Shown: positions 495 to 18,710 of the stretch, piece after piece
Numbering within the stretch: the first letter of the stretch is position 1
How the letters are laid out: each line of letters begins with the position of its first letter
Source: Clostridiales bacterium
Lineage (GTDB): Bacteria > Bacillota > Clostridia > Lachnospirales > Lachnospiraceae
DNA length: 41,033 nucleotides
Assembly: GCA_012519695.1 (NCBI GenBank)
Contig: JAAYPT010000065.1
Coordinates: forward strand, 1-41,033
Direction of reading: 5' to 3'
The notes under the pieces: generated by a model
The model's database searches: none
The model's input: the letters and a program-made list of their open reading frames with translations, nothing else
What the model was told of the DNA's origin: nothing
Position numbers and translations under genes: made by a program

Positions 495-1016
495 TTATAT
501 ACGCTCTTCTGTATGAGTCACAACCACATCTTCCTCCATCTCAAAACGAATTTGTGGCTGATTTAATACCGTGGTCTGGTCTTCCATTTCTTGCTCCGGT
601 AATGTGTTTTGCTCCAACACAGTCGTTTGCTCTAATACCGTGGTCTGGTCTGACACGGTTGTCTGATTCAATACAGTTGTCTGGTCTTCTGTCTGCTGAT
701 TTAATACCGTGGTCTGGTCTTCCATTCCTTGTTCCAGTAATGTAGTTTGTTCATCGATATTTTCTTTTGGTTGTAATCTTCCTGTGGTACGACCTCTTTT
801 CGGCACAATTTTATCTGTATTTTCTCGAATTGCACGAATTTTACTTTTTCCTTCATATCCTTCTTTTTGAATTTTCTTAATACTTCTCTTAGCAGTAATT
901 CCCGTTAATTCTCCAATGACTGCATAGATACGAAAAACAAAAAATAAAATGACAGCCCCGATTCCAAACAAAACCGCACCTACGATTCCTCCATAGAACA
1001 TAATCTGATTTACCAC
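495..1016 (-). CDS. One-pass membrane protein with repeated TTVL motifs
   Basis: The start is taken as GTG at 1016 because a GGGAGG Shine-Dalgarno lies 8 nt upstream; an upstream ATG at 1076 would overlap the kinase gene by 55 bp. The 173-residue product has one hydrophobic helix (residues 8-28), a basic stretch (43-80) and a C-terminal tail dominated by short repeats of the form D/E-Q-T-T-V-L-N/E-Q. Five exact TTVL copies begin at residues 102, 113, 125, 131 and 148, with degenerate variants (TTLL, TTVS, NTLP) between or before them. The positive-inside rule puts the tail in the cytosol. The same TTVL occurs in the neighbouring FHA and zinc-ribbon proteins, so the tail is plausibly a multi-site substrate of the adjacent kinase and a dock for FHA domains. 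That role is inference; no named family recognised. Confidence 0.8.
   Translation of the reverse strand: MVNQIMFYGGIVGAVLFGIGAVILFFVFRIYAVIGELTGITAKRSIKKIQKEGYEGKSKIRAIRENTDKIVPKRGRTTGRLQPKENIDEQTTLLEQGMEDQTTVLNQQTEDQTTVLNQTTVSDQTTVLEQTTVLEQNTLPEQEMEDQTTVLNQPQIRFEMEEDVVVTHTEERI
558..746 (-). repeat. In-gene short tandem repeats encoding TTVL units
   Basis: The DNA encoding residues 91-153 of the membrane protein contains repeated GACCAGACNACN-type units that give Q-T-T-V-L-N/E-Q. Copies are imperfect and irregularly spaced, as expected for a repeat tract that expands and contracts. The opposite strand gives a long spurious open frame over the same tract. Confidence 0.75.
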
Positions 1017-1021
1017 CTGTT

Positions 1022-3022
1022 TTACCTCCCATACTTCTGAAATAATGGCGTTAACTTTTGCACAAGTTTTTTCCACTTAATATCGTTTGAAATATCCGCC
1101 ACCTGCGTTCCCTGATCATAAACTGCAAAAATAGTATCTGCGTTCCAATTTTCTATATTACTATCTTTTGCTGCTTCTTCATTACAAAGTAATGATAAGT
1201 ATCCGATATAGATATCTTTATACTTTGTTCCAAACTCCTGTACACCGGCTTCATACTTTTCTTTTGCTGCCTCTAAGTTTCCGGTTTTTTCGTACATTTC
1301 TGCAACATCACATACATATTTGCAACGATCCTTTTCCTGAGTATCATCGGATATTATGGATAATATTTCTTCACAGTAAGTAATTGCCATATTATAATCT
1401 TGCATTTTTTCTGTATTATCATCTGATTCTTCAGCACGTTCCCGATACGCCTTATAGAGTACATCACTAAAGTCAATGGTATACTCTGTCAACAATTCAT
1501 CACTATCTAAATCTTCTACTTCATCCAATCCTTTGTCTGCCACTCGGATTGCTGAATCTACTGCCCCCTCAATAGATGTAGGATATATCATATAAATATC
1601 TCCCAGTATCTTATAGTTAAGCATTTTAGCAGCCGACACATTCTGACTATCATTGTATTCTTCAAATGTTTTCATCGTTTCTGCCAGATCAGTCTTGTCG
1701 CCTCCTGTGGTATCTAACTCTGACAAAGATGACAATATTTTTTTGTAATATACCGCTTCCGGCACTTCTTCTTCATCCAACATTTGAAAATAGTATAAAC
1801 TATTAGAATAATCTTTTTCTTCATTTAAATATGTTAATGCAACCTGACGCACTACCTCGCTGTTATTCTGTATGTTCTGATATCCGGAATTGATATATGC
1901 TCCGATTCTTTGCAAACCTTCCTCCGGATCCATGTAGTTCACATACAGACTTAACATATCCAAATATGCTTCCGGATTCTTTCCGTCCACATCTGTGATT
2001 GCCTCTACATATACTTCCGATGCCTTTGAGTAATCACCATTTATTTTGTATGTATTTGCTTTCTCAATTAAACTTCGATAATCTTGTTTTCTGGTATTTT
2101 GAACTCCCTGATATCCTAATACAGACACAACAATACTAGCCACCATCGCAGCTACTGTTGTGCCCCAGAGCAATAATTTTCTTGTTTGTTTTTTTCGATG
2201 TCCACTGTCCAATTCATCATAGTGTTCTAATGCATAGATTAACTCTGAACAATTTTGATAGCGGTCTTCCGGATTAGGCTGTGTACACTTTGCAATAATC
2301 TTTTCCAAACCACTGGACAACGCCGGGTTCCATTCACGAATTGGACGTATCTCATAAGGTGGTTCACATGGGTTCTTTCCTGTTACAATATGATAAATCG
2401 TTGCTCCCAAACAATAAATATCCGTTCTGGCATCCGTTTTATATATTCCGTGTCCCTGCTCATCACCAAACTGTTCCGGTGCTGCATATCCTCTGGTCCC
2501 CAACGCTGTGGTGTCTGCTATATTTTCTACTTTATATTCCTTGGCGGTTCCAAAGTCAATCAATTTTACTCTACCATCCGGCTGTAACATGATATTAGAC
2601 GGTTTCATGTCTCGGTAAATAATCGGTGGATTCATGGAATGAAGATAATCCAGGGCACTTGCTAATTGTTTTGCCCATTCAATTACATTTTCCTGTGGCT
2701 GTGCCCCTTCTTCTTTCAAAATACGATCTAACGCCAGTCCCTGAATATAATCCATAACAACGTATACCGTTCCGTCTTTATCAATAATATCCACAATTCT
2801 AGGCAATACAGGATGGTCTACTTTTTTCAAAATATTTGCTTCTCGCTCGATTCCTTTTAACTGCATTTCCACGCTTTGTGAACCATCATTTTTCAATTCT
2901 TTTACTGCCCACTGCTTATTCAGGCGGTTATCCATTGCAACATATACAATGCTCATTCCACCTTGACCGATTTCTTTTAATATTTCGTATTTTCCATCCA
3001 GTACCAGACCTACTTTTGACAT
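1022..3022 (-). CDS. Membrane Ser/Thr protein kinase with TPR-like extracytoplasmic part
   Basis: This 666-residue Hanks-type kinase has its N-terminal catalytic domain in about residues 10-265. Visible are the glycine loop GQGGMS (19-24), the ATP Lys41 in AVKEL, the catalytic loop YRDMKPSN with Asp138, the metal-binding DFG (Asp156), an activation loop with Thr171/Thr172, and APE (181-183). All catalytic residues are present, so it should be active. One transmembrane helix follows near residues 283-305. The C-terminal half is helical with TPR-like repeats, not the PASTA repeats of PrkC/Stk1. It lies 10 bp downstream of the PP2C gene and next to FHA proteins, which marks a phosphorylation circuit for the T7SS. 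It could also functionally replace EssB/YukC, which has a kinase-like fold but is absent here; this is speculative. Confidence 0.93.
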   Translation of the reverse strand: MSKVGLVLDGKYEILKEIGQGGMSIVYVAMDNRLNKQWAVKELKNDGSQSVEMQLKGIEREANILKKVDHPVLPRIVDIIDKDGTVYVVMDYIQGLALDRILKEEGAQPQENVIEWAKQLASALDYLHSMNPPIIYRDMKPSNIMLQPDGRVKLIDFGTAKEYKVENIADTTALGTRGYAAPEQFGDEQGHGIYKTDARTDIYCLGATIYHIVTGKNPCEPPYEIRPIREWNPALSSGLEKIIAKCTQPNPEDRYQNCSELIYALEHYDELDSGHRKKQTRKLLLWGTTVAAMVASIVVSVLGYQGVQNTRKQDYRSLIEKANTYKINGDYSKASEVYVEAITDVDGKNPEAYLDMLSLYVNYMDPEEGLQRIGAYINSGYQNIQNNSEVVRQVALTYLNEEKDYSNSLYYFQMLDEEEVPEAVYYKKILSSLSELDTTGGDKTDLAETMKTFEEYNDSQNVSAAKMLNYKILGDIYMIYPTSIEGAVDSAIRVADKGLDEVEDLDSDELLTEYTIDFSDVLYKAYRERAEESDDNTEKMQDYNMAITYCEEILSIISDDTQEKDRCKYVCDVAEMYEKTGNLEAAKEKYEAGVQEFGTKYKDIYIGYLSLLCNEEAAKDSNIENWNADTIFAVYDQGTQVADISNDIKWKKLVQKLTPLFQKYGR

Positions 3023-3032
3023 TCCTATCCCT

Positions 3033-3803
3033 CTATCTTATCGTTTTTATCAGTATGCAACTGATATTGTCCTTTTCTTTTCGCTGCTTTAACATTTCTA
3101 TAAACGTTAAAATATTCTGTTTCATAGTCTTTTCATCGGAATTTGCTTCAAAACAAAAACTTTTCCACATCTCAGATGGTGTACACACATGGCGCAAGCC
3201 ATCTGAACACAACATATAAGTAGCATTTTCCTTCACTTTTCCTTTGTAAAACACAGGCTCCACTATTTTAGATGCCCCAATGCATTGCAACAGCACACTT
3301 TTCCTAGGGTCTGTTTCTGCCTGTTCTTCTTTCAAACGTCCTGCTGCAATTTCTCTCGCCACCAGAGTTTGGTCTTCTGTTATCTGATATAGTGTATCTG
3401 ATAACTCATAGATACGGCTGTCCCCCACATGTACAACATAGTACTGTTCTTCCACTACCAAAAATGCTGTCAGGGTTGTTCCAAGATTTACGCTGTTTTT
3501 TCTTCCATAAGCTCCAATTCTTTCATTTTCTTCCAGAACTAATTCTTTCCATCTTTTCCATAGTGTCTGTTCTTCAAATCTTTCGTATAACATCTGTGGA
3601 AGTTCTTCATGAAACCATTTTCCAAATCGTTCTATCACTTCTCGACTGGCTACTTCTCCTTTTTCTAATCCGCCCATTCCATCGCAAATCACAGTAAAGA
3701 GTACTTCTCCTTGATCTGTTTTTGCTTTTTTTATCAAGATGGCATCCTGATTGGTTTCCTTTTTAATTCCCACATCACTTGCATACGCTGTTATATATCT
3801 CAT
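3033..3803 (-). CDS. PP2C-family Ser/Thr protein phosphatase
   Basis: A 256-residue protein covering a complete bacterial PP2C (PPM) domain: Asp10 and NQDA (18-21) near the N-terminus, metal-binding Asp41 in CDGMGG, GTTLTAF, HVGDSRIY, a late LCSDGL and the C-terminal DNIS. These residues coordinate the two metal ions and the phosphate in this family. There is no membrane segment, so it is cytosolic. A GGGAG Shine-Dalgarno precedes ATG 3803. It sits between the FHA gene (9 bp gap) and the kinase gene (10 bp gap), so it presumably dephosphorylates the kinase and its targets, as PrpC/Stp does with PrkC. Confidence 0.95.
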   Translation of the reverse strand: MRYITAYASDVGIKKETNQDAILIKKAKTDQGEVLFTVICDGMGGLEKGEVASREVIERFGKWFHEELPQMLYERFEEQTLWKRWKELVLEENERIGAYGRKNSVNLGTTLTAFLVVEEQYYVVHVGDSRIYELSDTLYQITEDQTLVAREIAAGRLKEEQAETDPRKSVLLQCIGASKIVEPVFYKGKVKENATYMLCSDGLRHVCTPSEMWKSFCFEANSDEKTMKQNILTFIEMLKQRKEKDNISCILIKTIR

Positions 3804-3812
3804 ATTTCTCCC

Positions 3813-4991
3813 TTATACTAAATCAAATATAAATTCTTCGTCTGCCAAAGAAACTTTTGTTCCCTTTATTAATAATTGCTCATTATCACCTTTCAATATG
3901 TTTCCGTTTACATAGGTATTATTGGTAGAATCATTATCCCTGATATAACATGCTCCATCTCTTTTGTGGATAATTGCATGTACTCTGCTGATAGCTACAT
4001 TATCTTCTACCGTATAGTCCGCATCCGTTTTAGACTTTCCGATTCGGAATACATTTTTATTAATAATAATTTTCTCCTGATTTTTCATTCGTATCAACAC
4101 CGGTGTCGGTTTCTTTTCCGAACTTCTCTGAAACAGCCCTCTTTTTGCCTTTAACGGTTCTTTCAACGTGCCAGACGGACTCATCAGTACAGTAGTTTCA
4201 TCATGTTCTCCGATTTGAGAATTGGCTATTAGACTTCCGGAAGGCGCAGGTTTTGCCGCCTCTAACTTAATTGGCTTTGGCTGACTTCCCTGTATCGTTT
4301 CCTCTCGCATAGAATGCGGCATTGGTGGTGCTGCAAAAGCCGGCTTCATCATTCCCGATGACACCGGTGACGCAACAGGAATTGGTGACGCCCCTGTTGC
4401 CACTGTTACCTGTGGCTGGCTCTGTCTGATTTTCGCTTCTTTCAAAGTTAAAACCAATTCTTCAAAATTTTCCACTTCAATGCTGCGGTTATTAGATATG
4501 TATACTACTAACTTTGCGATATAGTAAATATCTTCTTCCTCTTTATACGCAATACTCATAAGCAAGTCTTTTAAAAACTCACGCAAGCTCTTATTTCCAT
4601 CTAATTTTCTATCTTCCGGAATGCATAAAAAAGAAATATCTCTTGTCACAAAATCAACAAAAATATAATCCAGATTTAAATATAAATATCTCTCATCTAT
4701 CCCCTTACTTTTCAAAAGTTTATATGCTTCTATGATGGTTCCCAGAAGTTTTAGTACTTCTTCTTTTCCCATTGTTTGCATTAAATATTTTCGTAAAGTT
4801 GCCTTATAGGCAATATTATACTGAAAACCGTATTTTCCATCTTCTTGGACTTCTTCCAGCGTTTCAACAATGGTAGATGGATTGTCTTTTAAAATTTCAA
4901 CTGCCTTATGTTCTACCTTCTGTTCTTCCTGCACCCAATACAGTAAGAAATTTTCTAATCCATGATTTTTTATTTCAAAGATAGTATCCAT
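3813..4991 (-). CDS. FHA-domain protein with N-terminal DUF6382-like region and TTVL site
   Basis: A 392-residue cytosolic protein. Residues 1-175 form an alpha/beta domain of the kind seen at the N-terminus of clostridial FHA proteins (DUF6382-like, by memory). Residues 185-295 are a Pro/Ala/Ser-rich linker, and residues 297-392 are a forkhead-associated domain with the expected RIGKS, SRVH (335-338) and TNNTYVNG, which bind phosphothreonine. The linker carries DETTVLM (TTVL at 266-269), the motif repeated in the neighbouring membrane protein. This looks like a phospho-switch in which the kinase phosphorylates the linker Thr and an FHA domain, its own or another, binds it, as in GarA/OdhI. 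The start has a GAGG Shine-Dalgarno; the PP2C gene follows after 9 bp. Confidence 0.9.
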   Translation of the reverse strand: MDTIFEIKNHGLENFLLYWVQEEQKVEHKAVEILKDNPSTIVETLEEVQEDGKYGFQYNIAYKATLRKYLMQTMGKEEVLKLLGTIIEAYKLLKSKGIDERYLYLNLDYIFVDFVTRDISFLCIPEDRKLDGNKSLREFLKDLLMSIAYKEEEDIYYIAKLVVYISNNRSIEVENFEELVLTLKEAKIRQSQPQVTVATGASPIPVASPVSSGMMKPAFAAPPMPHSMREETIQGSQPKPIKLEAAKPAPSGSLIANSQIGEHDETTVLMSPSGTLKEPLKAKRGLFQRSSEKKPTPVLIRMKNQEKIIINKNVFRIGKSKTDADYTVEDNVAISRVHAIIHKRDGACYIRDNDSTNNTYVNGNILKGDNEQLLIKGTKVSLADEEFIFDLV

Positions 4992-5006
4992 TTTTTCCTC
5001 CGTTTT

Positions 5007-6773
5007 CTATTTCCAAATGTACTTTATTTTTTCTATTTCTTTTGCAACTTCTTTTGTCTCCTGGGTTTCATTTTCCAGACAATATAAGGTGTTTTTTGTA
5101 TCTGTATAATACACATCTTTTCCTATTACAAATACCTGCCCTTGAGACTTTATTGCATATTCTTCTTCATCTTTTTTGCGTACTATTACGCTTGTATCTG
5201 TATTGTACGCTAATGTTTTTTCTTCTGCATTTAAGTCAAAACTTTTCACACCGCCAGAAATTTTTTCTTCTTTTCCATCCGCATATGAATATAGTGTTCC
5301 ATCCGCCAGATAATAAACGCAATTTTTTCCCGGCGCATATTGATATGCTGTACACTTTTTCGCTAACAATTTCGGTTCTTGCCAGTCTTTTTCTATTTTC
5401 TCACAGCTATAAAGATTTTCTCCTGCCAGATAAAATAACAGGTTTTGATTCCATAATTGGATTTTTTGTGCTCTTCCAAAATTTGCCGCTACCTTGCAGG
5501 ATTCTTTTCCTTCCAATATATTATAACTATACAAACTGTTTTCCTTTAAATAATAATAACAGGGCGATGTATTCTCGTATGTTTTTACCATATTACTACC
5601 AAGAATCACCTCTCTGTCACATGACTGCTCATATTTCGTAGGTTCCGATGCATCTGTAAACCAATCCACATTTGTCGCTACTAACTGTTCTTTTCCTTCT
5701 TCTGTTGTATCCACAAAATAAACTGCTTTATCTTCTGTTTGTACAACAAATGCATCTAAATTTTTATAATACCCAAAATATGTAATCGCCGCATACTCTG
5801 TGCCATAGCTCTTTTTATCCTGAACACAATAAATGTTATAAGTAAGTTTTACTTCTTCGCCGTCTTCACTGCTTTGATTTTTCTGATTCTGTTGCTGACA
5901 GAATACTTTTCCCTTATCTGTTACCCCTATAACTCTTACCGGATTCTCTGTGGTTGCAATCTGATTCACTTCACCCGAAGGCATCACTTCACATATTACA
6001 TAATTCTCTTCGTCTGCCTGATAAGAATATGCCAAATAATCTCCTTCACTGCTAATCACGGTTCCATTGACACCTGTCACATATCTTTTCACCACATCAT
6101 CTGCACCCAAGCAGTGCAATGAATAGGAATTTTCTTCTTCCTGTGTCCAATAGTAAACTTTGTTCAAAGACTCGTCTGCCACCACACTTACAATCCGCTT
6201 ATCTTCTGAAGCCTTTTTACTTTTCTTCTTCCCTGTCAGTTCCAGCGTTCTTCCATCCGTTCCCATATACAAAAATTTACTATTTTCATATTCACTTTGT
6301 AATAAAGCGTAGGAACCATCCGATGTATCCGGCACTTTTTCTTCTACATCGTCACTATTTCCAAGCATTCCCGCTCCCGCATAGTAAAGTGTCTTTTCCT
6401 TATAAGTAATTTTATTTGGATATATATAACGAAAATAACAAAAAACAACAATGCCTGTCACCATCAAAACTGCCGCTATTATGCTTAATATAATAATAAG
6501 TTTTTTATGGCTCTTTTTGGGAATCTCAACTTCTCCTGTAACCACACATTTCTCTTCTTTGCTATTTTCCTTGTTTTCATCTTTTTTATTTTCTATTTTA
6601 TTTACACTCAAAACAGTTGTGGCATCTGTATCCACGCCCTGATATTGATATGAATATTCTTCTTGCGTTTGTTCCTGTATTTCTTCTTTTTCCTTTTTCG
6701 GGTCTGCTGCTGCGCCACACATCGGACAATATATTTCTTTTCCTATTTCGTTTCCACATACTCTGCACTTCAT
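5007..6773 (-). CDS. Zinc-ribbon, single-pass membrane protein with large extracytoplasmic domain
   Basis: The start is taken as ATG 6773, three codons inside a possible GTG at 6782, because GGTGA is correctly spaced from it. The 588-residue product begins with a zinc ribbon (CxxC at Cys3/Cys6 and Cys16/Cys19), an acidic linker containing ATTVLS (TTVL at 52-55), and one transmembrane helix (about 91-114). The remaining roughly 470 residues should lie outside the membrane. They show repeated short beta-type units (variants of 'YYLADGTLYSY'), which suggests a propeller-like fold related to DUF5050/WD-like proteins. The cytosolic TTVL site makes it a probable target of the kinase/FHA circuit. 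It follows esxA after a terminator and lies 15 bp before the FHA gene. Exact function unknown. Confidence 0.8.
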   Translation of the reverse strand: MKCRVCGNEIGKEIYCPMCGAAADPKKEKEEIQEQTQEEYSYQYQGVDTDATTVLSVNKIENKKDENKENSKEEKCVVTGEVEIPKKSHKKLIIILSIIAAVLMVTGIVVFCYFRYIYPNKITYKEKTLYYAGAGMLGNSDDVEEKVPDTSDGSYALLQSEYENSKFLYMGTDGRTLELTGKKKSKKASEDKRIVSVVADESLNKVYYWTQEEENSYSLHCLGADDVVKRYVTGVNGTVISSEGDYLAYSYQADEENYVICEVMPSGEVNQIATTENPVRVIGVTDKGKVFCQQQNQKNQSSEDGEEVKLTYNIYCVQDKKSYGTEYAAITYFGYYKNLDAFVVQTEDKAVYFVDTTEEGKEQLVATNVDWFTDASEPTKYEQSCDREVILGSNMVKTYENTSPCYYYLKENSLYSYNILEGKESCKVAANFGRAQKIQLWNQNLLFYLAGENLYSCEKIEKDWQEPKLLAKKCTAYQYAPGKNCVYYLADGTLYSYADGKEEKISGGVKSFDLNAEEKTLAYNTDTSVIVRKKDEEEYAIKSQGQVFVIGKDVYYTDTKNTLYCLENETQETKEVAKEIEKIKYIWK

Positions 6774-6799
6774 GTTCTTCACCTACTCATAATTTTAGA

Positions 6800-6840: not shown

Positions 6841-7137
6841 TTAGCCTTTGAACTGACTAGCGATATCAGAATCTGTTGTTTCGATTGTCTGTGCAGTAGC
6901 TCTTAAGGCATCTGCAATTTCACTAATAAGATCTCTTGCTTTCACAAAATTAGGTCTTAACTCTGTAAATCTTGCTGCATAGGACTGGCTAGCTGCACCT
7001 TCCCATTCATCCTGCAATGTTTTTAACAGAGAATCCATCTTGCTAATTACCTCATCAACATTACCTGCTTCGTCGTCATACTGTTTGGCACGCTGTCTCA
7101 TTGTGTCAGGTGTCATTCTAATCTGACCATTACTCAT
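6841..7137 (-). CDS. esxA: WXG100 family T7SS secreted protein (EsxA-like)
   Basis: A 98-residue protein with the hallmark of WXG100 proteins: two helices separated by a W-E-G turn (LQDEWEGAASQSY, Trp near residue 54). There is no signal peptide. The family forms helical-hairpin dimers that are exported by FtsK/SpoIIIE-type EssC ATPases. A very strong AAGGAGGG Shine-Dalgarno precedes ATG 7137, and the gene has its own promoter, long structured leader and terminator, so high expression is expected. It lies directly downstream of essC. The C-terminus (SDIASQFKG) lacks a clear YxxxD/E signal, as in many EsxA-like proteins. Confidence 0.95.
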   Translation of the reverse strand: MSNGQIRMTPDTMRQRAKQYDDEAGNVDEVISKMDSLLKTLQDEWEGAASQSYAARFTELRPNFVKARDLISEIADALRATAQTIETTDSDIASQFKG

Positions 7138-7455: not shown

Positions 7456-10400
7456 TTATTCCGCATTTACATCCAGTACACTCTTGATTTTTACCACCTC
7501 ATTTTCTTTGCAATAGAATCCCTCACCTACTTCCAGTTTTTTCTTATATTCTCTTATAATAGCCATTGGGATATCCAGTATCTTTTGGTTAGACAATTCA
7601 TCAAAAATTAATAAGTGTCTGCTCTCTTTTATATCTTTTAAAGGTTCCGGTGAAGAATAGGAAATATTTGCATTTGGTACATTTGAAATCAAAATTGCCA
7701 CTTTCATAGCTTTTAATTTTCCTGTTATATTTTTGTATAAATCCATCCATGTTGGATTATTCTGCAATACTTCTAACGCATCCATATTCTGTATTATCAT
7801 CAGAAGCAACGGTGCCTCTTCTAACACTGTATCATCTCCTGCCACCATTGCGTCATAACGCATGCGCAATTCTTCTTCCCACACGGTAAGCAATTCGCCA
7901 ATATAATTTGCATCCATGGTATACTTTTCTACAATTTCAAGCTGCGCCATGTTTGCATATTTTTTAGAAACATCATCAATAATTGCTACTTTAACCGGTG
8001 CCTTCTCATCGTTCTGCTGCAAGGTATGTAATAAATAACGCACAAAATTTCCTCGTCCTGAATTTTCTTTTCCGACGATTCCAAGAACTCCAAGATTGTT
8101 CATTTGCAGCATCACCGGCATAATAGTACTGTAATTTAAACCAATCATAACCTGATATGCCTTTTGAAGCACTTCCGGATATTGCTGTGCAACATAATTG
8201 GAATCCAATACTGCCGGTATCTCCGGTATTCTTTTAGCTCTTGCTGTACTTTTGGCATTTACTTCTGCCATAAATGACTTCATTTCTTCTACACGTTCGA
8301 TTTCTTTTCTTCCTGCAAACGCCAGATATGTCTGGTATTCATATAATGCTTTGTCAATATCGATAATTCCTCGTCCCGGTACATTTCGCGGCTGCATACG
8401 ACAATGATCAAATACACTGTTATATTCACTGGAATCATTACAATATAATGCAATTCTTTTTGAAAAATTGGATAAGTATTTATAACCGATTCCCGATGTC
8501 TGAGAGTTTACTACCACCACTGAAATTCCAACCGCAAGACCTTCACGACAAAGTAATAAGAGATTGTCGTTATCCTGAAGATATAACTCTTTCAGGGCTG
8601 TAAGATTATCTACCATAATTACAATCTGAGGCAGTTCGCGATATCCTGCATCACGATAAGAACTAAAGGAACTGATTCCCATCTGGGACAGCATATCCTT
8701 TCTACGGTAAATTTCTTCATTCATCATCTTAAAGAAATTCTTTAACTTTTCATCTTCTGAAGAAGTAACTACTCCACCCACATGACTTAATCCTTCAAAG
8801 GTTTTTAAAATCATGGATGCAAAGTCTAAAATATAAATATTTACTTCTTCCGGAGTATAGTTCATTGCCAATCCCTTAATGAGTACCTGTAATAAGTTTG
8901 TTTTTCCATACTGAGATGCACCCACTGCAAAAATATTTTCCTGTGAGAAATTGACAAATGTCTCCTTCTGTAACTGCTGCTCCGGTGCATCATAGATACC
9001 GATTACCGCACCAATATCCGATTCAATTTCAAAAGCAGGCTTACATAACTGATAATCGATTACTTCTCCTAAGGACGGCAAACAAATTCCCGGCAAATGT
9101 TCAATTCCATTATCTTTACAGTATTTTGCTACATACTCTACAATTGCTTCTAACTGTGTTGCAGATTTTTCTGATTTCGGATTCTTCTGTTGAAAGATAA
9201 CCTGACTCTTACCCAAAAGATTCACATCACTTACAGAAAATTCCTTTACAATATCTACTTGGCTTTGGTCTGCTGCTGCACCACTATATGCAGATTGGAA
9301 TAATTCAAAAATTTCGTTATTTCCTACCTGCAAATATGCACGTCCCGGTTCTTTGATTTCTGCCGCTAACGGAGACTTTAATACTTCGTTACTATCTTCT
9401 TTGTTCTGCACTTTCAAACAAAGCTTAAACTTGGAGTTACTCCAAATCTGATCATCTACTACACCGGATGGTTTCTGTGTTGCAAGAATTAAGTGTACAC
9501 CAAGGCTTCGTCCGATACGAGCCGCACTGATTAATTCCTTCATAAATTCCGGCTGGTCGCTTTTCAACTCTGCAAATTCGTCCACAATCAAAATCAAATG
9601 GGGTAATGCAATCTTAGCTTCTCCCGCTTTAAACTTCTTAATATACGCATCAATATGATTTACATTATAATCTGCAAATAACTCCTGTCTTTTTCTAAGT
9701 TCTGCCTTAATAGAAAGCAGGGAACGGTCAATCTCTCTTCCGTCAATATTGGTAATTGCTCCAATCAAATGTGGCAGGTTTTTAAACTGGTTTACCATAC
9801 CACCACCTTTAAAGTCGATAATTACAAATCCCACTTCATATGGGTGGAATAAGGTTGCCATGGATAAGATATAACTCTGCAAAATCTCACTCTTACCGGA
9901 ACCTGTTGTACCTGCTACCAATCCATGAGGACCATGGTGTTTTTCATTTAAGTCCAGACTTACCACTTCGTCACCGCTTTTTACTCCAAGTGGTGCTGCC
10001 ATGCTTTCATATACTTTAGATTCTCTCCAACGAGATGCGATATCCAGGTTATCAATATTGATAATTCCCAATAATTCATAGAGTGAAATGCTTTTTGTCA
10101 AGCTACTTTCCAGACTCACTTCATCTACATACACACATCCCAACCGTAAAGAAAGACTTTCTGCTACACGATTTGGAATTGTGTGATAAGTAAACGGCTG
10201 TTTTTCTTCTCCATTCTCAGAACTTACAATGACACCTGTTGCAAAATCATCTGCCATTTTTAAAACTTTGTCACAGCCCTTTGGCAATAATTCTTCATAT
10301 TCTTCAAAAAATAAAAAGTTAAATCCATACTTTCCACATTCTTCTACATACTTTGATACCGGATGCTGTGCAAGTCCCTCTGCATCGGTAACAAATACCA

Positions 10401-12018
10401 CATAATGCGGAAGGTGTTTTAAGTCTTCTTCCTTCAATCCCTCTCTGGAAGATAATTCTTCATAGAGCACCTCTAAAATAATTTTTCGGCTTTCTTCATC
10501 GTACATGAAGTTTCGAATATTTCCTACACCGCTTTTTACATTATGGAGCCAACGAAGCCATGTATATTTTTCCTGTTCATTTTCGTTAAATAAATAGTAA
10601 AACTTCACATCGTGGTAAAAATGACGCACAGATAAATCAATGGTAATATTTTTTAACATTTCATACTGCACTTCTTTGCTTCCCACAATTCCAATACAAT
10701 TATTTTCCTTTAGATTAATACAAACCGGTGCATCTTCCACATAACGATAAGCGTCCGCTAACTTTTCCGGATACTCGCTCAAGTCATCTTCCGTATCTTT
10801 AAACTCCTGTTTCTTATAAGCTACCTGACTCAAAGACTCTACCGTTCCGGTTCCCACTCGGACAGTCAGATAATCATCATCTTCCACATCCTTTTCAAAC
10901 AATCTGCTGTCGAACCGCTCTACTTCTTCAATTTCTCTATCGATAGAAATATATTTTTCTTCCAGAATTCTAAGTTCTTTTTTTCGGAGTTCTTTTATCT
11001 CATTTTCCTTATCTTTCGCATACTGAAGATACTCTTTTCGTCGTTCTTTTATCTCCGCCCGATATTCTTTTCCATCCATAAAATAAGTAATAATAGAAGT
11101 GGCTATTCCCATTCCCATCATGGCAGCACTATAAATAACAAACATTCCGCCGCCACCCATGGCACCACGCAAAAATACCATCATTACCATAGATATTAAT
11201 GCCGGAATAATTGTCATCACAACATTTCTCTTTGGTGCTTCTTTTTTTGCCTTTGGTGCTAAAACTTCAATTTCTTCTTCCGGTACAATATACTTTATTC
11301 TGGTATTTCTTTGAAACTTGGGATACATAAGCTGATTCCCTGTTTGCATAGTATCCATTTCCTTCAAACCATTTACCTGAATTGTATTGGCATTGGTTGT
11401 AAACAATCTGGAATTGCGAATATAAAAGGAATATCCATCTAACATGAAAAAGTCCATATCATAAATCGTTTTTTCTTTTTCTTCCATCCGAAATCCATTT
11501 ACATAGACACCATATCTGGTTCCGGTATCTTTCAGCATATAATTACCGTTATTTTTTACTAAAGCAATGGTATCTTCCTCTACCAAATCATCCTGAATAT
11601 GTAAATTACAAAAAGCCTTTCCGCCAATGGCAATACTTTGCTGCTCCGGTATTTCTATTACACGTTCAAAATCGCTATACATGTTATCAAAGTCAATGTA
11701 AAAAGAAACTTTCATCAATTCTGCATTACTGCTTTGATATTTTAAAACAATCTCTGTTCCGTGTTTCAAAGTCATTGCCGTCTGTTTCATCAAGCCATCG
11801 GATATGAAGTATACGGTGTCACTGCAAATCAGTTTCCACTCTTCGCCTTGTGGTACAACTAAAATTTCAAAATCGTCAAAAAAACTGTCACGACTAAATC
11901 GCACGTTACAGTTTTTCGTAGTTCCTATGCATACACCATCTTTATTTTTTCCATACAATACAATTTCCTGGTATATTTTCGTTCCAAATAAAATGATTTT
12001 ATAATTCTGTTCCTTCAT
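7456..12018 (-). CDS. essC: T7SS FtsK/SpoIIIE-type translocase EssC
   Basis: This 1520-residue protein has the full EssC architecture of Firmicutes T7SS: N-terminal FHA-like domains (about 1-95 and 115-210), two close transmembrane helices (about 265-312) with a basic/acidic coiled stretch behind them, and three FtsK/SpoIIIE ATPase modules. The first has a canonical Walker A (GTTGSGKSE, near 702) and Walker B (LILIVDEFAEL, near 810). The second (GASQYGKTN, near 1030) keeps the P-loop Lys, while the third (KENSGRGN, near 1311) lacks it and is probably inactive, as commonly seen. It is the motor that exports WXG100 and LXG-type substrates through the membrane. It follows yukD by 9 bp and precedes the esxA promoter. 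Its FHA domains, often considered degenerate in EssC, may be tied to the phospho-signalling proteins of this locus. Confidence 0.97.
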   Translation of the reverse strand: MKEQNYKIILFGTKIYQEIVLYGKNKDGVCIGTTKNCNVRFSRDSFFDDFEILVVPQGEEWKLICSDTVYFISDGLMKQTAMTLKHGTEIVLKYQSSNAELMKVSFYIDFDNMYSDFERVIEIPEQQSIAIGGKAFCNLHIQDDLVEEDTIALVKNNGNYMLKDTGTRYGVYVNGFRMEEKEKTIYDMDFFMLDGYSFYIRNSRLFTTNANTIQVNGLKEMDTMQTGNQLMYPKFQRNTRIKYIVPEEEIEVLAPKAKKEAPKRNVVMTIIPALISMVMMVFLRGAMGGGGMFVIYSAAMMGMGIATSIITYFMDGKEYRAEIKERRKEYLQYAKDKENEIKELRKKELRILEEKYISIDREIEEVERFDSRLFEKDVEDDDYLTVRVGTGTVESLSQVAYKKQEFKDTEDDLSEYPEKLADAYRYVEDAPVCINLKENNCIGIVGSKEVQYEMLKNITIDLSVRHFYHDVKFYYLFNENEQEKYTWLRWLHNVKSGVGNIRNFMYDEESRKIILEVLYEELSSREGLKEEDLKHLPHYVVFVTDAEGLAQHPVSKYVEECGKYGFNFLFFEEYEELLPKGCDKVLKMADDFATGVIVSSENGEEKQPFTYHTIPNRVAESLSLRLGCVYVDEVSLESSLTKSISLYELLGIINIDNLDIASRWRESKVYESMAAPLGVKSGDEVVSLDLNEKHHGPHGLVAGTTGSGKSEILQSYILSMATLFHPYEVGFVIIDFKGGGMVNQFKNLPHLIGAITNIDGREIDRSLLSIKAELRKRQELFADYNVNHIDAYIKKFKAGEAKIALPHLILIVDEFAELKSDQPEFMKELISAARIGRSLGVHLILATQKPSGVVDDQIWSNSKFKLCLKVQNKEDSNEVLKSPLAAEIKEPGRAYLQVGNNEIFELFQSAYSGAAADQSQVDIVKEFSVSDVNLLGKSQVIFQQKNPKSEKSATQLEAIVEYVAKYCKDNGIEHLPGICLPSLGEVIDYQLCKPAFEIESDIGAVIGIYDAPEQQLQKETFVNFSQENIFAVGASQYGKTNLLQVLIKGLAMNYTPEEVNIYILDFASMILKTFEGLSHVGGVVTSSEDEKLKNFFKMMNEEIYRRKDMLSQMGISSFSSYRDAGYRELPQIVIMVDNLTALKELYLQDNDNLLLLCREGLAVGISVVVVNSQTSGIGYKYLSNFSKRIALYCNDSSEYNSVFDHCRMQPRNVPGRGIIDIDKALYEYQTYLAFAGRKEIERVEEMKSFMAEVNAKSTARAKRIPEIPAVLDSNYVAQQYPEVLQKAYQVMIGLNYSTIMPVMLQMNNLGVLGIVGKENSGRGNFVRYLLHTLQQNDEKAPVKVAIIDDVSKKYANMAQLEIVEKYTMDANYIGELLTVWEEELRMRYDAMVAGDDTVLEEAPLLLMIIQNMDALEVLQNNPTWMDLYKNITGKLKAMKVAILISNVPNANISYSSPEPLKDIKESRHLLIFDELSNQKILDIPMAIIREYKKKLEVGEGFYCKENEVVKIKSVLDVNAE

Positions 12019-12027
12019 GCGCTTCCC

Positions 12028-12279
12028 CTATCTCGTAAAATTTATTATAGTGCCATTTCTAAGTTGGTATTCTTCTATGGTTTTATTCCCCTTTAGTAAT
12101 GCAATGGGATTTTCTGTCTTTAAATAACATTGTCTGATATCCTCTACATCTATCCCCAGATGATATCCCTGATTTAATGCCGTCAACAATTCATTTGCAG
12201 TAATATTTAACGGCACTTCTATGTCGTGTATTTCTTGTCGTTTATGTAAATAAAGTGACATGATAATTGTATTTTCCAT
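12028..12279 (-). CDS. yukD: YukD/EsaB-like ubiquitin-fold protein of the T7SS
   Basis: About 83 residues. The short beta-rich sequence with a central helix (residues about 25-37) and a C-terminal 'GNKTIEEYQLRNGTIINF' pattern matches the beta-grasp YukD/EsaB family that accompanies EssC. Two ATGs lie in tandem (12282 and 12279); the second is chosen because AGGAG is only 2 nt from the first. It begins 8 nt after the stop of the ATPase gene and ends 9 bp before essC, so translation is probably coupled. EsaB is a cytosolic accessory protein needed for secretion in characterised systems. Confidence 0.85.
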   Translation of the reverse strand: MENTIIMSLYLHKRQEIHDIEVPLNITANELLTALNQGYHLGIDVEDIRQCYLKTENPIALLKGNKTIEEYQLRNGTIINFTR

Positions 12280-12287
12280 CATTTCTC

Positions 12288-13349
12288 CTAACCCAGCAAA
12301 TACGCTGTTGCCTGAAATAAGTTACTTCTGCGAATATTTTCCAATGTAATGGCTCTTCCGTTCATTTCTTCTTTTGCTACATATTCTGCAATACTGCAAT
12401 TTTGCAATATTTCGCTATATAGGATACGATTTTCGCAGGTTTCCCGATAGTTATTGCAAACCCACAGCATTTTTTCATCATCGGAATAATCAATATTTTT
12501 CAAAAATTCTTCTATCTTATACACGGACAAAGCATCCTGCTGCAATACATTTACTACACGATAACACCTTGCCATCAGCTTGGTTTTAAAAAGTGTTAAT
12601 TCAGAAGATACATCAAAAATAATATAGTCATATATATTCGCATCCAGAATCTGATTAATAAAGAACAGATAATTTTCTTCGGTAATTCCATATGCTAATA
12701 TTGATTGACGCATTGGTTTTACATAATCAAACTCTTCATGCCCTACTGCATTTTTTAAATAAGACAATGCATGCTCATCCTCATTTACGATACAAGTTGC
12801 CAATTCCTCATATGCATAGCCTTTATCCTGCATATACCATCGAAAACTCTGTATGCTTTCGGCATTAAAATACAGTACCTTTTTCCCTTGTTTTGCCAAT
12901 GCTACCGATAATCCAAGCGCTGTGGTTGTCTTTCCCACACCGCCAATAGGAGAATATACCATAATTCCCTTGGTAACACGATTTGTATCCGTATTGGTTC
13001 GTATATTTAACCTTTGACTGATTTTTTCGGTAATACAACGCGCCATTTCCCCCGGATTCATGTATTTATGTAACAGGCAGATGCGACTATCTGTTTCCTC
13101 TTGCACTTCATTCTCCTGAAGTACAAATGTCAGATTCACGTTCTGCTTTTGCAAACATTCCCGATACCAGTTTTCCTGTGCCACTAACACATCAATGCTT
13201 TTCGGTTTTTCAAAGTAAGTATCAAAATACTCCTGTTCTGTAATGGATTCTATTTCCGCCCGCTCACCTAATTCTTCTAAAAGCTTCCATTCCAGTCCTT
13301 CTAAAAATTTATCGTCACCGTCAATTAATACGATTGATATACTTTGCAT
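12288..13349 (-). CDS. MinD/ParA/CpaE-like ATPase of the T7SS locus
   Basis: A 353-residue protein. Residues 1-115 look like a degenerate receiver-type domain as in CpaE, followed by a P-loop ATPase of the SIMIBI/MinD type with Walker A SPIGGVGKTTT (133-143, Lys140). The signature Lys of the deviant Walker A (KGGVGKT) is replaced by Ile135, so ATP-driven dimer behaviour may differ. A later hydrophobic 'YDYIIFDVSSEL' fits the switch II/Walker B strand. Cytosolic or membrane-peripheral. It is placed between the FHA gene (12 bp) and yukD (5 bp) in an obvious operon. Members of this family position secretion or pilus machines at specific cell sites; a positioning role for this T7SS is inference. 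Confidence 0.85.
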   Translation of the reverse strand: MQSISIVLIDGDDKFLEGLEWKLLEELGERAEIESITEQEYFDTYFEKPKSIDVLVAQENWYRECLQKQNVNLTFVLQENEVQEETDSRICLLHKYMNPGEMARCITEKISQRLNIRTNTDTNRVTKGIMVYSPIGGVGKTTTALGLSVALAKQGKKVLYFNAESIQSFRWYMQDKGYAYEELATCIVNEDEHALSYLKNAVGHEEFDYVKPMRQSILAYGITEENYLFFINQILDANIYDYIIFDVSSELTLFKTKLMARCYRVVNVLQQDALSVYKIEEFLKNIDYSDDEKMLWVCNNYRETCENRILYSEILQNCSIAEYVAKEEMNGRAITLENIRRSNLFQATAYLLG

Positions 13350-13361
13350 TTCTCACACTCC

Positions 13362-14245
13362 TTACTGTACTTCATATTGCAAATCTGCAATCTGTATCAC
13401 ATCACCTGCCTGCAATGGAATATATTCACCGTTTTTTACAATACTTCCATTTACATAAGTGTGATTCAAACTTCCCATATCTTCAATATAGAATTGACCG
13501 TTCATCCAAAAAATTCTGCAATGCTTTCTGCTGACAGAACTTGACCCTTCAATCACTTTATGGGCATATTCCGGGCTTTTTCCTAAAATGCACTCTGCCA
13601 TATCAATTATGAGATTTTGTCCATTGGTAATTCCAACAAGTCGAATTTTCCGGGCATTTCCTCTATTTACTCCTGTACTATATTTTTTCATTTTTAAATT
13701 CAGGAAAATATCGTCTGAGCTATTCATGCCTTCCCTGCAATCCTGATATAATGAGATTATTCCTTCGTCTTGCTGGCATTGTGCCTTTTCGATAATTTCA
13801 CATATCAGACTCTTCATTGCCAGTTCAAAGGACATCTGCGTCTCAGGTGTGGAAGAAATCGCTAATGGAACGCAAATCATATGTACTCCCAAATTATCAT
13901 CTAAAAATATAGAATCATAGGACAAATCAATGGTTTCTGTTTGTATCAAACCATTCATTTTGAAAGAATCTACATTTTTATATATTTCTGTTATTATCTG
14001 TATAATATGTTCCGGCAATAACTGTCCCTTATAGCTATATAAAGTATGATAGGCACTTAGGGGATAACTCAGTCTTACCTTGCCGTTCCATGCAGATTTG
14101 TAGCATGGAATAAATGCATCTCCTGCCTGATTCTGTAATATTTTATATGCCGTCTGATAAAAAAACTATTATCTTCTAATGTATAATACAACCGTTCTGA
14201 AGTCCTTCCAGACTGTACAATACTTTCACACACAAAACTGCTCAT
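13362..14245 (-). CDS. FHA-domain protein, first gene of the T7SS operon, frameshifted in this sequence
   Basis: A gene of about 294 residues is read in two frames. It starts at ATG 14245 with a good AAGGAG 7 nt upstream and runs to codon 29. There, a run of seven T (14159-14165, coding strand) breaks the frame, and the zero frame stops at 14075. The -1 frame continues without interruption through the N-terminal domain to the stop at 13362. Residues about 1-195 resemble the N-terminal region of the other FHA protein in this locus (shared aromatic 'Y..AYK.L' pattern). The C-terminal about 95 residues are a FHA domain (SVSRKHCRIFW, LNHTYVNGSIV). The heptamer T TTT TTT is in frame for a -1 slip, so programmed frameshifting is possible, but a missing T from homopolymer error is simpler. 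Confidence 0.85.
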
Positions 14246-14368
14246 TTTGGTACTCCTTTTTGATTAAAATTTATGATTTCAGGGAAATACATCGAATAAA
14301 AGATTTTTGATTTTTCAGAAATGACTCCCCTTATTAATCATACTCTCAAACCCGTTTTTTCTAAAGAA

Positions 14369-17377: not shown

Positions 17378-17391
<14 letters not shown>
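17363..17391 (-). promoter_or_regulatory. Sigma-A promoter for secG
   Basis: On the minus strand a perfect TTGACA (17386-17391) and TACAAT (17363-17368) are 17 bp apart. The -35 lies inside the last codons of eno. The start point would be near 17356, giving a short leader before the secG GTG. Confidence 0.85.

Positions 17392-18710
<1,319 letters not shown>

Follow-up and report, generated by a model that had tools for sequence, protein, structure and literature searches.

Control by phosphorylation has already been suggested for type VII secretion systems (T7SS). For the variant T7SSj, Garrett et al. (2024, PMC11217815) describe a TPR-bearing kinase (TsjD), a PPM phosphatase and the proteins J and K, and by their account the recognition of phosphothreonine (pThr) by the FHA domain of TsjC is conserved; K of the variant T7SSe is one helix with a short unstructured cytosolic stretch. 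Kinases, PP2C phosphatases and FHA proteins are listed at several T7SS loci in the sections of that survey covered here, without a phosphorylation site that links them. In the sections of the respective reports covered here, PpkA-Fha of the type VI secretion system forms a phase-separated hub that recruits parts of that system (PMC12607579), the kinase PknF and the phosphatase PstP control how the FHA domains of the M. tuberculosis membrane protein Rv1747, connected to one another through a disordered linker, condense (PMC9312465), and FHA domains are said to need pThr strictly, with pTxx[I/L/V] listed by ELM (PMC8786283). Here we describe a T7SS-type locus of a Clostridiales bacterium in which a one-pass membrane protein carries an array of the motif T-x-[VIL]-L, a candidate site linking the kinase, the phosphatase and the FHA proteins encoded beside it.

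The locus lies in contig JAAYPT010000065.1 (assembly GCA_012519695.1), a stretch of 41,033 nucleotides (the window) from a 3.16-Mb genome of clostridial kind. From 14018 to 495, all on the minus strand, it encodes an FHA protein, a TadZ-like ATPase, a YukD-like protein, EssC, a WXG100 protein, a zinc-ribbon membrane protein and the proteins J, F, D and K, lettered after Garrett et al. (2024, PMC11217815). The T7SSj parts A, B, C, D with TPR, F, J and K are all present; K is named from its place, its single helix and its disordered tail, K of that survey being known here by description. T7SSj is recognized by an EssC FHA domain with conserved pThr recognition, which is lost in the window, and T7SSf by the presence of V and the absence of the kinase; here, a V-like ATPase and the kinase are both encoded. 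The Ig-like envelope protein I of T7SSj was not found among the open reading frames of the window, and the contig ends 494 bases past the tail gene.

Three of these proteins share the motif TTVL. K (495..1076), the tail protein, contains it at residues 122, 133, 145, 151 and 168 (702-713, 669-680, 633-644, 615-626 and 564-575), preceded by TTLL at residue 111 (735-746), so that the array occupies 564..746. One further copy lies in the linker of J, at residues 266-269 (4185..4196), about 30 residues upstream of the FHA domain, and another in the zinc-ribbon protein between the ribbon and the membrane helix (6609..6620; residues 55-58 from the GTG at 6782, or 52-55 from the ATG at 6773). A preliminary description of the window had reported five copies in the tail protein and one in each of the other two, and our recount agrees with it. 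When the sequence of K was shuffled 10,000 times, none of the shuffles reached five copies. A single TTVL arose in 64 of 10,000 shuffles of J and 145 of 10,000 of the zinc-ribbon protein, and the single copies are modest evidence when taken alone. The back-translated pattern has 172 matches genome-wide and is rarer than its reversed control (362), which indicates that TTVL is not a general favorite of this genome. Eight matches fall in the contig, seven of them in frame within K, J and the zinc-ribbon protein, and the repeats of K are written with differing synonymous codons. In two genomes of the same genus (L038 and L039), TTVL is kept in all three close orthologues; a genome of another family (L043) keeps it in K and in J, with TILL in the zinc-ribbon protein.

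Comparison of homologous tails shows that the conserved unit is wider than TTVL: it is T-x-[VIL]-L, with the first Thr and the Leu at +3 fixed and the second Thr optional. At a cut-off of E 0.001, a profile (A1) built from eight tails, array included, and hence favoring array-bearing proteins, matched K homologues in 76 of the 396 family genomes and in 17 of the 393 class genomes. Sixty loci fetched from the places of these matches and seven earlier ones gave a set of 67; five of them had no tail among their open reading frames (L210, L224, L238, L240 and L243) and two long FHA proteins were removed, leaving 62 tails, one of which (L253) is probably not a tail protein. T-x-[VIL]-L occurs 213 times in 58 of the 62, against a mean of 13.2 (maximum 24) in shuffled sequences, although the sequences within each set are related and shuffling therefore overstates significance. 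The substituted forms all lie at or below their shuffle means (in brackets): 7 (10.6) with Ser, 1 (8.4) with Ala, 3 (6.8) with Asn and 9 (15.0) with Glu in place of Thr, 6 (13.2) with Ile and 7 (11.9) with Val at +3, and 11 (12.6) for the reversed motif; the control T[VIL].L, at 18, lies slightly over its mean of 13.2 (maximum 22). Viewed from either fixed position, Thr is the first residue in 199 of 222 occurrences of ..[VIL]L in the middles of the tails, and Leu stands at +3 in 199 of 315 occurrences of T.[VIL]x, the Ile and Val versions not exceeding chance. Two properties of FHA ligands, Thr rather than Ser at position 0 and an aliphatic residue at +3, are thus present.

There are up to 15 copies per tail, with repeat spacings of 8 to 12 residues, 11 and 8 being the commonest. 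Glu leads at −1 (47%), and +1 is Thr in 34%, Glu in 20% and Asp in 15% of the sites, giving words such as ETVVL, GTAVL, ETELL and NTEVL; since only 34% have Thr at +1, the second Thr is optional. When the family was searched again with a profile lacking the array (A7), the number of genomes was once more 76 of 396, and most of them had already been found with A1. Among 18 readable sequences of the 19 further low-scoring homologues fetched with it, 12 contain T.[VIL]L, in 31 copies against 1.4 by shuffling, with 5 for the reversed motif and 2 for the Ser form. Conservation of TTVL among orthologues had been proposed as a check: the exact letters fade across genera, with T-x-[VIL]-L conserved and the exact form retained in L038 and L039. 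Exact TTVL was accordingly discarded as the conserved unit. TT[VIL][LVIM] stands between DUF6382 and FHA in only 11 of 67 DUF6382-FHA proteins (in 4 of the 9 among them with a kinase in the stretch), and T.[VIL]L is found in most of those tested.

The same motif recurs in front of FHA domains. In unbiased counts of four-residue words in the linkers, TVLL, TTVL and NTVL were among the most enriched. A matrix trained on the tails only, and scanned against the 648 non-tail proteins encoded at the 67 loci from which those tails came, matched 35 of 57 FHA proteins but only 22 of 591 other proteins, in total 90 matches in 57 proteins, against 15 in shuffled and 13 in reversed sequences. In the 70 residues that precede the FHA domain, 38 of the 55 FHA proteins encoded at tail loci have a T.[VIL]L (3.4 expected, maximum 8). 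So do 40 of 58 DUF6382-FHA proteins whose loci show no kinase in the stretch (2.0 expected, maximum 7), and 40 of the 43 sites in this second group lie 20-29 residues upstream of the FHA start. Proteins of the second group have one site in 36 cases, two in four and none in 18; at least two sites are found in 29 of the 55 proteins of the first group versus 4 of the 58 of the second, and TT.L precedes the FHA domain in 31 of 55 versus 8 of 58. In a second sample, the best 80 of 403 confirmed stretches from an EssC-anchored scan of titled genome records (L254-L333, L254 being the genome of L038), FHA proteins other than the short DUF6382-FHA type carry the site in 32 of 45 cases (3.0 expected), whereas the short type is at chance (4 of 46; 4.3 expected). 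The second FHA protein of the window (13362..14018), which we assign to the short type from its place, has no T-x-[VIL]-L.

The pThr pocket of the FHA domains is conserved. Of 151 FHA domains, a number of which occur in more than one set, 142 retain the pocket Ser, 142 the Arg, 150 the His and 147 the Asn, and all four residues are present in both FHA proteins of the window. J (3813..4991) has S335, R336, H338 and N357 after a disordered linker at about 191-296, and Lys at 319; at this G-R site, the 151 domains have Lys in 114 and Arg in 25 cases, Lys also in the window proteins. In a fold search with the model of J, the best structural matches, FHA chains in the rows considered, include the FHA domains of GarA, OdhI, EmbR and DgcB. 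For the DUF6382 part (4497-4991), a role as an EssB-like pseudokinase was considered, but the profile comparison with the Ser/Thr protein kinase gave a probability of 0.2% and did not support it. Its strand and helix order in the confident model looked kinase-like, and weak Protein Data Bank matches include kinases (best E 0.026), which we record as a lead only.

The FHA part of EssC, which the preliminary description had tentatively offered as a further docking partner, is not supported in this role. At the columns corresponding to J residues 319/335/336/338/357, the two degenerate N-terminal FHA-like domains of EssC (7456..12018; NCBIfam TIGR03928, 1218.8 bits, above cut-off) read T/D/D/E/A and G/E/E/T/Y, in an alignment that is uncertain for domains this degenerate; both have lost the pocket residues, and we rejected EssC FHA as a reader at this locus.

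The kinase and the phosphatase accompany the tails closely. That kinase, PP2C and FHA are encoded together in the window had been proposed and is borne out by Pfam. Kinase D (1022..3022; Pkinase 1.4e-48 and TPR matches) has intact YRDMKPSN and DFG, one membrane helix and its TPR in the outer part, and its activation loop, DTTALGT, is itself T-x-x-L. The loops of kinases with a tail neighbor read T..LGT in 60 and TT.LGT in 43 of 63 parsed cases (6 of 69 rows gave no parsed loop), the same T-x-x-L core as in the docks. The Thr at +1 would then reflect the local kinase, since TT.L is commoner in tail loci and TT.LGT so frequent in activation loops, and the T-x-x-L core would reflect the FHA reader. 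Phosphatase F (3033..3803) matches PP2C_2 at 6.5e-14 and NCBIfam Stp1 at 3.7e-50, the latter under its cut-off. Across the 62 tail loci, a kinase is found in 59, PP2C in 60 and an FHA protein in 45, and all 19 further loci of remote homologues carry a kinase.

T7SS genes are a less regular companion. EssC or WXG100 occurs at 8 of the 62 loci, Tad-type genes at 9 (six of these calls being based on prepilin peptidase alone) and neither at 45, the last an upper bound, as the queries for Tad and WXG100 were single sequences and the stretches end 7-8 kb from the tail. Moreover, 24 of 56 tail-bearing genomes have no EssC match at E 1e-40. A device confined to T7SS was accordingly rejected. Large proteins often follow the tail gene, and the one scanned (L041) has Ig-like domains (Big_2). 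In L040 and L041, the DUF6382-FHA, PP2C, kinase and tail genes adjoin Tad-pilus-type genes (TadE, T2SSF, prepilin peptidase).

Further proteins may offer docks. The two sets contain 18 membrane proteins whose N-terminal part has a double C..C. Six of them have the site between the ribbon and the first helix, at loci also showing a kinase or an FHA protein; these numbers are small, and the six include the same gene twice (L038 and L254) and two proteins of L267. A further case in L289 looks like a helix match, and in L043 the site follows the helices. The two proteins of L267 (16683-17471 and 19173-19631, plus strand) are small one-helix zinc-ribbon proteins encoded at an EssC locus. They carry 2 and 3 copies of T-x-[VIL]-L, respectively, and may form an alternative dock. 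The EssC-anchored set contains 129 small non-FHA proteins that have one or two helices close to the N-terminus; 13 of them have at least three sites, and none has three reversed ones. Each of the 13 lies at a different one of the 80 loci, and a kinase or PP2C is seen at 10 of these 13 loci. One tail with nine copies, in Clostridium sp. KNHs214 (L310), had been missed by the profile.

A multivalent pThr-FHA scaffold controlled by the kinase and PP2C is the best reading of this arrangement, and we consider it reasonably probable, because Thr is strict to the exclusion of Ser, Leu stands at +3, the motif is multiplied in a membrane tail, copies precede FHA domains, and kinase and PP2C adjoin. The tail protein would be anchored in the membrane and offer FHA domains a multivalent ligand. 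The neighboring kinase, with T-x-x-L in its own activation loop, would phosphorylate the first Thr of each T-x-[VIL]-L. J, and probably the second FHA protein as well, would bind pThr with Leu at +3, and several copies of FHA protein would gather at the membrane under the secretion system. The linker sites of J, one or two in a row, could hold the FHA domain in cis, as in GarA and OdhI, or link J to J; the zinc-ribbon protein, with one site, could be pulled into the same cluster, and PP2C would take the marks off. Much of the scaffold put forward in the preliminary description is retained, namely the FHA-ligand-type motif, the multivalent tail, its recurrence in FHA linkers and the co-occurrence of kinase and PP2C, all of which are consistent with it; docking on EssC and specificity for T7SS are not.

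The principal competitor is a cis switch, in which the phosphorylated linker of J folds onto its own FHA domain and shuts it, and the tail array acts as a local competitor that opens or titrates J. The single site of most DUF6382-FHA proteins with no kinase in the stretch agrees with this, as do the fold matches to GarA, OdhI, EmbR and DgcB and the spacing of the linker sites, which resembles that of GarA and OdhI (FHA cores from residues 52 and 44). Such a switch needs neither up to 15 sites in a membrane tail nor the tandem sites of FHA proteins in tail loci, and as the whole explanation we consider it unlikely, although scaffold and switch may both act. Alternatively, the array could serve the kinase, its sites copying the activation loop to act as a substrate sink, as a device for delay or counting, or as a dock for the kinase; FHA binding would then be secondary. 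The loops and the enrichment of TT.L in tail loci point this way; however, the site also precedes FHA domains at loci without a kinase, and kinases as a class often accept both Ser and Thr, so that a strict Thr fits an FHA reader better, which makes this explanation distinctly improbable. We give slightly less weight still to a role independent of phosphorylation, as a hydrophobic strand-forming repeat or plain low-complexity expansion. The hydrophobic pair at +2/+3 and the commonest spacings of 8 to 12 residues would suit such a repeat, but Thr stays fixed while flanks and copy number vary, the synonymous codons differ, and the site recurs before FHA domains.

Several observations weigh against the scaffold itself. 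Four of the 62 tails have no T-x-[VIL]-L, nor do 6 of the 18 remote homologues, five of these six with tails of 26-52 residues, and the array is therefore not required in every member. In 17 of the 62 loci, the stretch fetched contains no FHA protein. The single sites of J and of the zinc-ribbon protein could be due to chance, the looser T.[VIL]L arising in 226 and 1061 of 3000 shuffles, respectively, and their weight comes only from homologues. Arg is usual at the G-R site of FHA domains, where Lys stands here. The AlphaFold model leaves the linker of J disordered and undocked, which neither supports nor excludes pThr docking, and the likeness between docks and activation loops may be general to this group of kinases. 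Phosphorylation, binding, clustering and an effect on secretion are all predicted from sequence.

The remaining features of K and of the locus can be summarized briefly. The gene of K begins at a GTG about 54 bases within the 3′ end of the kinase gene (1022-1076), an overlap also seen in L038 and L039. Its product, for which Pfam, NCBIfam and PADLOC gave no match above the thresholds applied, consists of an N-terminal membrane helix region, a juxtamembrane IGELTGITAKRSI, six T-x-[VIL]-L sites and the C-terminal cap VVVTHTEERI. The cap (498-560) recurs among the 62 tails: 24 have HT[DEN]E within their final 25 residues, and 45 have a looser version. A juxtamembrane motif of the LTG type is found in 57; a role in kinase docking is possible. 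The K homologues of L366, L373, L374, L375 and L380, beside kinases, have tails of 26-52 residues from which the motif is absent, by array loss or as an ancestral state. The zinc-ribbon protein (5007..6782) was recognized from its CxxC pairs, no Pfam model exceeding its cut-off. Further upstream lie the genes for the WXG100 protein (6841..7137; Pfam WXG100 3.1e-21), the YukD/EsaB-like protein (12028..12282; YukD 2e-05, just below cut-off) and the TadZ-like ATPase (12288..13349; AAA_31 5.6e-14), whose likeness to TsfV is deduced from PMC11217815. The second FHA gene appears split (13362-14246): about 46 N-terminal codons match the orthologue in a different frame, possibly by a real frameshift or an assembly error. 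An enolase-like gene, named by eye (17378-18698, minus strand), consists of two overlapping frames, 17378-18415 and 18405-18698, and suggests an assembly frameshift in this contig.

In searches of the open PubMed Central literature, we found no mention of a TTVL or T-x-[VIL]-L array. The authors of a phosphoproteome of C. difficile report no specific kinase signature, and the parts of that report covered here hold nothing on T-x-x-L (PMC9674922). The array, the rule T-x-[VIL]-L and the occurrence of the array beyond T7SS are in this sense new; the list of parts and the FHA logic are known. The array offers residue-level candidate sites linking kinase, PP2C and FHA in a protein earlier described as a helix with a short unstructured part, and turns possible regulation by phosphorylation into definable peptides and point mutants. 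On a broader reading, to which we give an even chance, clostridia have a portable phospho-scaffold cassette that is inserted at T7SS loci, at Tad-type loci and where neither is present, and that gathers FHA-bearing parts at the membrane in response to a kinase signal. Its parts, put forward with the same reserve, would be PP2C, a membrane kinase, a tail with 0 to 15 docks, an FHA protein often with one or two sites and, often, a giant secreted protein. If so, D, F, J and K of T7SS would be a separate signaling device borrowed by some of these systems. The tail protein reaches beyond T7SS and is carried by 76 of the 396 genomes of the family.

Among known systems, GarA and OdhI of Actinomycetota have a Thr-Thr pair before the FHA domain and no other domain, a description that J does not match. 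The similarity to their switch, as first proposed, holds for the Thr of J about 30 residues before the FHA core, and both are among the best fold matches; it does not extend to the Thr-Thr pair, the second Thr being variable among relatives of J and present at only a third of the tail sites, and J differs further in its additional DUF6382 domain and its partner tail array. Eukaryotic FHA scaffolds of the MDC1 type, in nuclear DNA damage signaling, have repeated pThr docks in common with the tail; the proteins are unrelated, though MDC1 FHA structures are among the fold matches of J. In Rv1747, unlike this locus, linker and FHA domains belong to one ABC transporter, and we know of no repeated T-x-V-L array in it. 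PpkA-Fha likewise places a membrane kinase and an FHA protein beside a secretion system, but shows no separate array protein in the parts of the report covered here (PMC12607579). Unlike T7SSe, T7SSj and T7SSf, for which the sections covered here mention no such motif, the window locus mixes parts of T7SSj and T7SSf, adds the zinc-ribbon protein and has lost the EssC FHA pocket. In common with them, it has the TPR kinase, the PPM phosphatase, the DUF6382-FHA protein J, the one-helix K, WXG100, a YukD-like protein and EssC, together with a TadZ-like V as in T7SSf (PMC11217815).

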